From NCBI RefSeq assembly GCF_965638725.1, contig NC_134949.1, positions 189,289,706 through 189,353,705 on the forward strand: DNA of 64,000 nucleotides, in the 5' to 3' direction. The notes under the pieces were generated by a model. That model had not been told where the DNA came from. It did not search any database and worked only from the letters and a program-made list of their open reading frames with translations. Positions 28,699 to 42,881 of this stretch are shown here, piece after piece (position 1 is the first letter of the stretch; each line of letters opens with the position of its first letter). Source of the DNA: Aptenodytes patagonicus. Taxonomy: Eukaryota; Chordata; Aves; Sphenisciformes; Spheniscidae. The translations under genes and the position numbers were made by a program.

Positions 28699-28704
28699 AG
28701 GTCA
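28699..28704. repeat. Possible target duplication AGGTCA, left
   Basis: AGGTCA at the CR1 3' terminus recurs at 29541-29546 beyond the U6 end of the chimera. The first two bases of the right-hand copy also match U6, so the duplication may be as short as four bases. Confidence 0.4.
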
Positions 28705-28709
28705 TAGAA

Positions 28710-29423
28710 TCATAGAATCATAGAATAATTGAGGTTGGAAAAGACCTCCAAGATCTTCGAGTCCAACCGTCGACCCAACACCACCACCTCCCTAAGTGCC
28801 TCATCTACACGTCTTTTAAATACCTCCAGGGATGGGGACTCCACCACTTCCCTGGGCAGCCTGTTCCAATGTTTCACCACTCTTTCAGTAAAGACATTTT
28901 TCCTTACATCCAATCTAAACCTCCCCTGGAGCAACTTGAGGCCATTTCCTCTCGTCCTATCGCTAGTTACTTGGGAGAAGAGACCGACACCCACCTCGCT
29001 ACAACCTCCTTTCAGGGAGTTGTAGAGAGCGATGAGGTCTCCCCTCAGTCTCCTTTTCTCCAGGGTAAACAACCCCAGTTCCCTCAGACGCTCCTCATAA
29101 GACTTCTTCTCCAGACCCCTCACCAGCCTCGTTGCCCTTCTCTGGACACGCTCCAGCACCTCGACGTCCTTCTTGTAGTGAGGGGCCCAAAACTGAACAC
29201 AGTAGTTGAGGTGCGGCCTCACCATTGCCGAGTACAGGGGCACGATCACTTCCCTCCTCCTGCTGGCCACACTATTTCTGATACAGGCCAGGATGCCATT
29301 GGCCTTCTTGGCCGCCTGGGCACACTGCCGGCTCATGTTCAGCCGGCTGTCAACCAGCACCCCCAGGTCCTTTTCCGCCAGGCAGCTTTCCAGCCACTCT
29401 TCCCCAAGTCTGTAGCACTGCAT
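28710..29423 (-). pseudogene. CR1 ORF2 C-terminal part (237 codons, open)
   Basis: This is the C-terminal region of the CR1 ORF2 protein, downstream of the RT catalytic motifs. Visible segments include [53 protein letters not shown] and [10 protein letters not shown]. It is uninterrupted and, by eye, nearly the same as the matching part of the 40-42.8 kb copy, so the insertion is fairly young. Relative to that copy, bases spanning the normal stop codon are missing, so the frame reads on into the 3' UTR and ends near the tail. It lacks the endonuclease and RT core and has no own start, so it is not a gene. Confidence 0.9.
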
Positions 29424-29458
29424 GGGGTTGTTGTGGCCGCATGGGGTTGTTGTGGCCG
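29421..29458. repeat. 19-bp perfect tandem duplication at the U6/CR1 junction
   Basis: CATGGGGTTGTTGTGGCCG occurs twice back to back (29421-29439 and 29440-29458). The related CR1 copy at 42.1 kb has this segment once. The second copy touches the U6 sequence directly. Confidence 0.95.
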
Positions 29459-29509
29459 AAAAAATATGGAACGCTTCATGAATTTGTGTGTCATCCTTGC
29501 GCAGGGGCC

Positions 29510-29542
<33 letters not shown>
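29459..29542 (-). pseudogene. RNU6 (pseudogene): U6 snRNA pseudogene, 5'-truncated
   Basis: U6 snRNA is the catalytic-core RNA of the spliceosome. The minus strand here matches vertebrate U6 from about nucleotide 25 (CTAAAATTGG) to the terminal U-run. It includes the ACAGAGA box (29518-29524), which pairs with the 5' splice site, and the AGC triad region. I see only two substitutions against the U6 sequence I know, both G to A at former CpG sites (ACG to ACA and TCG to TCA), consistent with methyl-CpG decay. The first ~24 nucleotides are missing, including the 5' stem. No U6 promoter (PSE or TATA) is evident beyond 29,542. It is a retrocopy, not a working gene. Confidence 0.95.
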
Positions 29543-29546
29543 GTCA
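29541..29546. repeat. Possible target duplication AGGTCA, right
   Basis: Partner of 28699-28704. Its first two bases (AG) overlap the last matching bases of U6. Confidence 0.4.
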
Positions 29547-40027: not shown

Positions 40028-42789
40028 ACATCTACACCAATGCACGCAGCATGGGCGGCAAACAGGAGGAGCTGGAAGCCATTGTGCGGTGGGAGAGATA
40101 TGACTTAGTCGCCGTCACAGAAACATGGTGGGGTGACTCTCATGACTGGAGTGCTGCAATGGATGGCTATAGACTCTTCAGAAGGGACAAGTGAGGAAGG
40201 AGAGGCGGTGGGGTGGCCCTGTATGTTAGGGAGTGTTTCGATTGTATAGAGCTCAACGATTGTGATGATGGTACGGTTGAGTGTTTATGGGTAAGGATGA
40301 GGGGGAAGGCCAACGAGGCAGATAACCTGCTGGGAGTCTGTTATAGACCACCCAACCAGGATGAAGAGGTGGATGAAGCATTCTACAAGCGGCTGGCAGA
40401 AGTCTCTCAATCGCTAGCTCTTGTTCTCGTGGGGGACTTCAACTTCCCGGATGTCTGCTGGAAATACAACACGGCAGAGAGGAAGCAGTCTAGGAGGTTC
40501 CTGGCGTGTGTGGAAGACAACTTCCTGACACAGCTGGTAAGTGAGCCTACCAGGGGAGGTGCCTCGCTCGACCTGCTGCTTACTAACAGAGAAGGACTGG
40601 TGGGAGATGTGGTGGTCGGAGGCCGTCTTGGGCTTAGCGACCATGAAATGGTAGAATTCTCCATTCTTGGTGAAGTAAGGAGGGGGGGCAGCAAAACCGC
40701 AACCATGGACTTCCGGAGGGCAGACTTTGGCCTGTTCAGGACGCTGGTTGAGAGAGTCCCTTGGGAGACGGTCCTGAAGGGCAAAGGGGTCCAGGAAGGC
40801 TGGATGTTCTTCAAGAAGGAAGTCTTAAAGGTGCAGGAGCAGGCTGTCCCTGTACGCCGTAAGAACGGGCGGGGAAGACGATCGGCCGGGCTGAACGGGG
40901 AGCTCTTGCTGGGACTCAGGAAAAAAAGGAGAGTTTACCGCTTGTGGAAGAAGGGGCAGGCGACTCAAGAAGAGTACAGGGATCTCGTTAGGTCGTGCAG
41001 AGAGGAAATGAGAAAGGCAAAAGCCCAGCTAGAACGCAATCTGGCTGCTGTCGTTAAAGACAACAAAAACTGTTTTTACAGTTATATTAATGACAAGAAG
41101 AGAGCCAAGGAGAATCTCCATCCTTTATTGGATGCGGGGGGGAACATGGTCACTGAGGATGAGGAAAAGGCTGAGGTACTCAATGCCTTCTTTGCGTCAG
41201 TCTTTAATAGTCAGATCAGTTATCCTCAGGGTACTCGGCCCCCCGAGCTGGAAGATAGGAACGGCAAGCAGGATGAACCCCCCATAATCCAAGAGGAAGC
41301 AGTCAACGACCTGCTACGCCACCTGGACGCTCACAAGTCTATGGGGCCGGATGGGATCCACCTGAGAGTGCTGAGGGAGCTGGCGGAGGTGCTCGCCAAG
41401 CCACTCTCCATCATCTATCAGCAGTCCTGGTTAACGAGGGAGATCCCGGACGACTGGAGGCTTGCCAATGTGACGCCCATCTACAAGAAGGGCCGGAAGG
41501 AGGATCCGGGGAACTACAGGCCTGTCAGCCTGACCTCGGTGCCAGGGAAGATTATGGAGTGGTTCATCTTGAGGGCGCTCACAAGGCATGTGCGGGACAA
41601 CCAGGACATCAGGCCCAGCCAGCACGGGTTCATGAGAGGCAGGTCCTGCTTGACCAACCTGATCTCCTTCTATGACCAGGTGACCCGCCTAGTGGATGAG
41701 GGAAAGGCTGTGGATGTGGTCTACCTGGGCTTCAGTAAGGCCTTTGACACCATCTCCCACAGCATTCTCCTAGAGAAGCTGGCGGCTCACGGCTTAGACA
41801 GGTGTACTCTGCGCTGGGTCAAAAACTGGCTGGACGGCCAGGCCCAGAGAGTTGTGGTGAATGGAGTTCAATCCAGTTGGCGGCCGGTCATGAGCGGTGT
41901 TCCCCAGGGCTCAGTACTGGGGCCGGTCTTGTTTAATATCTTTATTGATGATCTGGATGAGGGGATTGAGTGCACCCTCAGTAAGTTTGCAGATGACACC
42001 AAGTTGGGCGGGAGTGTTGATCTGCTCGAGGGTAGGAAGGCTCTGCAGAGGGACCTGGACAGGCTGGATCGATGGGCCCAGACCAAGTGTATGAGGTTCA
42101 ACAAGGCCAAGTGCCGGGTCCTGCACTTCAGCCACAACAACCCCATGCAGCGCTACAGGCTTGGGGAAGAGTGGCTGGAAAGCTGCCTGGCGGAAAAGGA
42201 CCTGGGGGTGCTGGTTGACAGCCGGCTGAACATGAGCCGGCAGTGTGCCCAGGCAGCCAAGAAGGCCAATGGCATCCTGGCCTGTATCAGAACTAGTGTG
42301 GCCAGCAGGAGTAGGGAAGTGATCGTGCCCCTGTACTCGGCACTGGTGAGGCCGCACCTCGACTACTGTGTTCAGTTTTGGGCCCCTCACTACAAGAAGG
42401 ACATTGAGGTGCTGGAGCGTGTCCAGAGAAGGGCAACGAGGCTGGTGAGGGGTCTGGAGAACAAGTCTTATGAGGAGCGTCTGAGGGAACTGGGGATGTT
42501 TAGCCTGGAGAAGAGGAGGCTGAGGGGAGACCTCATTGCTCTCTACAACTCCCTGAAAGGAGGTTGTAGCGAGGTGGGTGTTGGTCTCTTCTCCCAAGTA
42601 ACTAGCGATAGGATGAGAGGAAATGGCCCCAAGTTGCGGCAGGGGAGGTTTAGATTGGATGTAAGGAAAAATGTCTTTACTGAAAGAGTGGTGAAACATT
42701 GGAAGAGGCTGCCCAGGGAAGTGGTTGAGTCCCCATCCCTGGAGGTATTTAAAAGACGAGTAGATGAGGCACTTAGGGACATGGTTTAG
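40027..42789 (+). pseudogene. CR1 ORF2 protein (endonuclease-reverse transcriptase), one stop, catalytic loss
   Basis: A single frame runs from 40027 to the TAG at 42787-42789 with one break, a TGA at 40192-40194. That stop replaces an expected CGA (Arg), a typical CpG decay. Counting codons from 40213, the apurinic-type endonuclease shows [10 protein letters not shown] (about 42-51), GDFNFP (about 74-79) and SDHEM (142-146). The reverse transcriptase shows [20 protein letters not shown], motif A (about 503-513), [10 protein letters not shown] and FADD with catalytic Asps at 594-595. Motif A reads [10 protein letters not shown]: the catalytic Asp is replaced by Gly (GGC at 41728-41730, codon 506), whereas the older copy has YLDF. 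Conserved C-terminal CR1 segments follow. There is no native ATG start because the 5' end is truncated. It is a well-preserved but inactive copy. Confidence 0.93.
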
Positions 42790-42881
42790 TGGGTGGTGGT
42801 GTTGGGTCAACGGTTGGACTCAATGATCTTAAAGGTCTTTTCCAACCTCAATGATTCTATGATTCTATGATTCTATGATTC
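40028..42881 (+). mobile_element. Younger CR1 LINE, nearly complete ORF2, nested insertion
   Basis: This CR1 inserted head-on into the older minus-strand CR1. It begins within the start of the endonuclease domain (YIYTNARSM) and so lacks ORF1, the 5' UTR and a few N-terminal ORF2 codons. It ends in a perfect (ATTCTATG)n tail at about 42,852-42,881. TACCT flanks it on both sides. The insertion must post-date the older element. Its 3' 750 bp are nearly the same as the chimera's CR1 at 28.7 kb, so both come from one recently active CR1 subfamily. Confidence 0.95.
42852..42881 (+). repeat. CR1 3' terminal (ATTCTATG)n repeat
   Basis: More than three units of the octamer end the young CR1. This is the sequence CR1 reverse transcriptase uses at initiation. 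Confidence 0.9.

Follow-up and report, generated by a model that had tools for sequence, protein, structure and literature searches.

A genuine U6-CR1 chimera was confirmed in the window, i.e. the whole stretch of 64,000 nucleotides of Aptenodytes patagonicus DNA analysed here. At this locus, the mature 3' end of a U6 snRNA copy is joined in sense to a 5'-truncated LINE with an intact 3' end. Further fusions were found in the genome, and the CR1 reverse transcriptase, like that of mammalian LINE-1, therefore seems to switch to small nuclear RNAs as templates. Chimeras of this kind are already known; CR1 is the LINE clade for which the matter was previously open. The question left open for turkey is thus answered in one bird genome: like L1, L2 and RTE elements, CR1, which is an abundant LINE of birds, forms chimeras with snRNAs.

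Structure of the chimeric locus

The original prediction described a gapless transition from U6 (nt ~25 to its U-run) into a young, 5'-truncated CR1 with a normal tail, and this structure was borne out with its coordinates by Rfam, blastn and a CR1 alignment (Table 1). The U6 oligo-T runs without gap into CGGCCACAAC on the same strand, and the CR1 tail is reached at about 28703. The Rfam U6 model covers positions 29567-29460 of the minus strand, with base-by-base homology only from U6 nt 25 (29542). A functional U6 gene was excluded, because U6 nt 1-24 are not recognisable at this locus. Relative to a U6 reference sequence, 2 of the 83 bases differ, both being G to A changes in CpG (nt 80 and 88). 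The LINE portion is homologous to other copies of the same element, which we take to be CR1 from its 3'-end motifs.

Table 1. Features of the U6-CR1 chimera and of the CR1 copy used for comparison (positions in the window).
Feature	Position	Strand	Evidence or remark
U6 snRNA copy, 5'-truncated, nt 25-107, oligo-T end	29460..29542	-	Rfam RF00026, 98.2 bits; blastn 97.6% over 83 nt
CR1 LINE, young, 5'-truncated, 3' tail (ATTCTATG)n complete	28703..29459	-	94.5% identity with the comparison CR1 (42131-42878), 748 alignment columns
Tandem duplication of 19 bp at CR1 start, units 29458-29440 and 29439-29421	29421..29458	-	left edge coincides with the U6/CR1 junction
Putative target-site duplication TGACCT, 5' copy	29541..29546	-	last 2 bases (CT) overlap U6 nt 25-26
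Putative target-site duplication TGACCT, 3' copy	28699..28704	-	first 2 bases overlap the CR1 tail
Comparison CR1, second young copy in the window, outside the chimera	42131..42878	+	alignment to the CR1 of the fusion

The normal CR1 sequence at the junction position, CTTCGGCCACAACAACCCCATGCAG, matched the genome 8501 times with at most one mismatch (4265 forward, 4236 reverse), and its reversed control 0 times. This count confirms the TTCGGCC context, which the original prediction had given for related CR1 copies; consequently, the assignment of one or two junction T to U6 or to CR1 is ambiguous, as expected from the TT microhomology proposed there. The comparison CR1 carries TTCAGCC where the usual CR1 has TTCGGCC.

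Two features had escaped the earlier description, namely a 19-bp tandem duplication at the junction and the hexamer TGACCT on both sides of the insert. With up to three mismatches allowed, the duplication matched a single place in the 1.35-Gb genome. As it is single-copy compared to 8501 normal copies, it arose in or after the fusion event. The same numbers exclude a CR1 subfamily bearing the duplication, and a U6-headed SINE family is excluded because the junction duplication is single-copy genome-wide. In addition, the terminal 20-mer of the U6 3' end has six matches without mismatch, and the different downstream sequence at each of them argues against an snRNA-headed SINE family.

TGACCT is the longest repeat abutting the insert and overlaps both partners by two bases. 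A repeat of at least 6 bp has a P of 0.018 under a null of random 5' flanks, so that the flanks are only suggestive of a target-site duplication; the hexamer could also have arisen by chance.

One target-primed CR1 insertion accompanied by template switching probably generated the chimera. The CR1 reverse transcriptase would have copied CR1 RNA from its 3' tail upward, left the template at the CGGCC site and dropped back by 19 nt on the CR1 RNA, so that these 19 nt would have been copied a second time. From there the enzyme would have switched to the 3'-terminal oligo-U of a U6 RNA, one or two T being compatible with either partner. Copying of U6 would have ended at nt 25-27, close to the base of the 5' stem-loop, and the insert would finally have been sealed, leaving a short target-site duplication. 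We infer both the order of the jumps and their occurrence during reverse transcription. This route is supported by the gapless join on one strand, the intact CR1 tail, the TGACCT flanks, the recurrence of the arrangement, the joins of U1, U2 and U5 to CR1 described below and the edge of the duplication lying at the junction. Leaving the CR1 template twice at one position is consistent with stalling or run-off of the reverse transcriptase. Alternatively, the duplication could stem from later replication slippage, in which case the match of its edge with the junction would be coincidence.

Recurrence of U6-CR1 joins

Nine U6-CR1 joins were found genome-wide: seven involve the oligo-U end of U6, two of these being less certain, and two are internal to U6. 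The join counts are lower bounds. The original prediction had named multiple U6-CR1 joins of independent origin, at differing places in CR1, as support for template switching. Such joins are indeed present in the same genome: they begin at differing CR1 positions and in differing CR1 families. Together with the structure of the window locus, this recurrence supports the proposed role of CR1 as partner in a chimeric retrocopy. Chance adjacency of U6 and CR1 was excluded by the recurrence at several loci.

The query of the genome with U6 identified 12 copies. CR1 is the partner at half of them (the window locus, C7:38135635, C1:143141595, C1:1637876, C2:28463737 and C3:26404055). The remaining six are found within or next to LTR-type sequence, and not one of the 12 is free-standing. 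Further U6-CR1 joins at C2:47072554, C2:170488530 and C6:5484458 were detected by a U6 family search, which gave 22 matches with 48 of 142307 first-look candidates scored, and by the search with the U6 3'-end 20-mer. The latter yielded 17 matches, 11 of them with one mismatch, and its reversed control five. Three of the 11 one-mismatch matches (L050, L055 and L056) were counted as U6 chimeras. One more of the 11 is L053, treated below. In L058 (93%) and L054 (85%), U6 similarity extends over 27 nt with no CR1 adjoining, and five others show U6 similarity over at most 18-24 nt, which is chance-like. All eight matches of a mid-U6 pattern search fell on known loci.

At the oligo-U-end joins, the U6 portion starts at nt 25 (window), 69 (L035), 73 (L036), 72 (L062), 73 (L063), 12 (L061) and 1 (L060). 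Its 3' end is complete except in L061, where U6 ends at nt 106 and thus without the last T. In the window, L035, L036, L061 and L062, CR1 homology sets in no more than 10 nt from the junction. In L060 and L063, CR1 homology was detected with a small CR1 library only from 176 and 150 nt onward, respectively; the gapless join is thus inferred at these two loci, which are for this reason less certain. By eye, an esterase-like ORF1 pattern can be made out in L060; its Pfam match stayed below threshold.

The two internal joins are located at U6 nt 67 (L037) and nt 70 (L038), and neither locus contains another U6 match longer than expected by chance. Since internal initiation was never observed for U6/L1 according to the available part of Doucet et al. 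2015 (PMC4476161), these joins may represent a peculiarity of CR1; they may equally be CR1 copies inserted into already broken U6 copies.

Abutting flank repeats of 5-6 bp were found at four of the nine U6-CR1 joins (window 6, L035 6, L060 5 and L062 5 bp), compared to a chance rate of 6% per locus for repeats of at least 5 bp under the null. At the remaining five joins, the repeat is at most 4 bp long, which weighs against the proposed route.

An older U6 pseudogene into which a later CR1 inserted exactly at the U6 3' end would also give a U6-CR1 arrangement, and the abundance of CR1 (8501 matches to a single 25-mer when one mismatch is allowed) speaks for such a pair of independent events. 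We nevertheless regard it as very improbable: the arrangement is repeated at five to seven loci with a complete or nearly complete U6 3' end, all 12 matches of the U6 query adjoin CR1 or LTR-type sequence, and TGACCT brackets the entire insert. An assembly error at the junction is hardly conceivable in view of several independent loci with differing CR1 positions, the matching repeat at both flanks and the long contigs (C1 comprises 227 Mb).

A stand-alone U6 gene was not present among the 12 matches of the U6 query; working U6 genes may be unassembled. The 13 weak matches of the family search (L009 and L011-L022) are degraded or doubtful, and the small CR1 library detected no CR1 directly downstream of them. 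L011 (C1:71605733-71605832) contains a degraded U6-like copy, with 5S rRNA-like sequence (as read by eye) no more than about 50 nt further downstream. At L053 (C5:29666221-29666240, minus strand), about 20 nt resembling the U6 3' end stand directly before a CR1 tail; this locus is possibly a tenth U6-CR1 join and was left uncounted as too short.

Other small nuclear RNAs and LTR-type partners

The original prediction also suggested a search for other small RNAs joined to CR1. Human U1, U2, U4 and U5, used as one query, gave 43 matches with 40 of 57 candidates scored. Nine near-identical clustered U1 copies were set aside, and short stretches of the other 34 copies were examined. Sense CR1 was located downstream of 9 of these 34 Pol II snRNA copies, comprising U2 (L077 and L081), U1 (L078, L080, L089 and L100) and U5 (L084, L085 and L098). 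L078 is less certain, as it was assigned to CR1 through a 158-nt stretch that shares 61% identity with the ORF1 side of L060. The snRNA matches begin at nt 1-9 and end before the mature 3' end, in L078 and L080 by just 6-7 nt. Between the snRNA and its CR1 partner lie 0 to about 20 unexplained bases, which are T-rich in L080, L089 and L100; these intervening bases are a further point against the proposed route. LTR-like sequence, similar in kind to that beside U6 copies, was read by eye downstream of three U1 copies (L076, L082 and L099), and neither CR1 nor LTR-like sequence was seen within the short stretch fetched for the other 22 of the 34. Consequently, joining to CR1 is not limited to U6, and joins at the mature 3' end were found in this sample only for U6. 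Altogether, 18 CR1-snRNA joins were detected in one genome, L060, L063 and L078 being less certain.

The LTR-type sequence beside the other six U6 copies presumably belongs to endogenous retroviruses, judging from primer-site and LTR features. These copies comprise U6 nt 42-107 (L039), 64-107 (L040), 57-94 (L041), 48-107 (L042), 3-103 (L064) and 1-103 (L065). In L039 (C1:172874259-172874324, minus strand), U6 nt 107 is directly followed by a complete tRNA-Lys(CTT), predicted by ARAGORN and present from its first base onward; antisense LTR-type sequence comes next. It looks as if the strand had been copied through the entire primer tRNA of an LTR element and had then jumped to the U6 3' end. 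The LTR-type sequence at L040, L041, L042, L064 and L065 is of the same element group as that at L039, and portions of these five loci align with one another or with L039 at 72-94%. Packaging of U6 by MLV and RSV is described in the available part of a published report (PMC4997597).

Template jumping, RNA ligation and known chimeras

The original prediction assigned mammalian U6-LINE fusions to template switching by the L1 enzyme. L1 is indeed an established partner, and excerpts of Doucet et al. 2015 describe U6 chimeras with L1, L2 and RTE elements (PMC4476161). Template switching is not the sole route proposed: RNA ligation has been published as a rival for human U6/L1 (Moldovan 2019, as cited in the accessible text of PMC13174262). 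In this process, RtcB would fuse the 3' end of U6 with the 5' end of a fragment of CR1 RNA, and an ordinary CR1 insertion would then copy the product. The position of all seven U6-3'-end joins at the mature oligo-U end (without the last T in L061) is in agreement with ligation. Nevertheless, ligation alone does not account for the backward jump of 19 bp at the same CR1 position, and the junction T common to both partners fits annealing. Moreover, the U1, U2 and U5 joins, which are independent of the special U6 3' end, and two U6 joins stop short of the mature 3' end and are left unexplained unless fragments were ligated. We consider ligation an unlikely origin of the window chimera. If the reading of a double departure from the CR1 template is true, the window locus bears on the choice between template jumping and RNA ligation, for which the 18 CR1-snRNA joins constitute a natural series of test cases.

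The original prediction knew of no description of such a fusion for CR1. This holds in part: a 5'-truncated U6 with a CR1-like element was reported from turkey as a single case, which the available text of Doucet et al. 2015 calls inconclusive owing to an assembly gap (PMC4476161). The turkey copy and the window locus share a 5'-truncated U6 and a CR1-like element in a bird, and differ in that the junction and both ends could be read in the window. No further report of a U6-CR1 fusion was recognised in the literature searched, which covered few subscription papers.

The window chimera resembles mammalian U6/L1 (Buzdin 2002, as cited in the accessible part of PMC13174262), in which U6 also stands in sense at the 5' end of an often 5'-truncated LINE; the target-site duplication flanking U6/L1 has a putative counterpart in TGACCT. 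In U6/L1, U6 is described there as consistently full-length, whereas it is 5'-truncated in the window and in most of the seven oligo-U-end joins; furthermore, the partner in the window is CR1 and the flank repeat is short. The U6-L2 chimeras of platypus likewise have a non-L1 LINE as partner; almost all of their U6 segments are 5'-truncated, and their target-site duplications are small (1-9 bp), according to the excerpts available (PMC4476161). For Anolis, the same source lists U6 joined to L1-like, L2-like and RTE-like elements. The window locus differs from the platypus and Anolis chimeras by the CR1 clade. For PittSINE of passerines, which consists of a tRNA-Asp head and a CR1 tail, a template switch of the CR1 reverse transcriptase to a small RNA was proposed as it is here (PMC5729268, in part); PittSINE is a SINE family with a tRNA head, in contrast to the single-copy U6 chimera of the window.

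In four of the seven oligo-U-end joins, U6 begins within nt 69-73, a part of the internal stem-loop. For clustering within any 6-nt interval, post hoc Monte Carlo simulation gave P values of 0.026-0.040 for all seven joins and of 0.009-0.015 for the five clearly truncated ones. Mammalian U6 carries m2G72 according to the accessible parts of two reports (PMC13109388 and PMC10415138), and a stop of U6 copying near this nucleotide is a lead only. One can speculate, as a doubtful joint reading, that the U6 3' end might be a general landing site for the reverse transcriptases of unrelated bird retroelements, namely CR1 and a lysine-tRNA-primed LTR element. CR1 copying would then stop near nt 69-73 beside G72, so that the chimeras would record structure or modification of U6, and the double departure would reflect end-to-end template jumping and not RNA ligation. 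The U6 portion of L035 has an A at nt 72.
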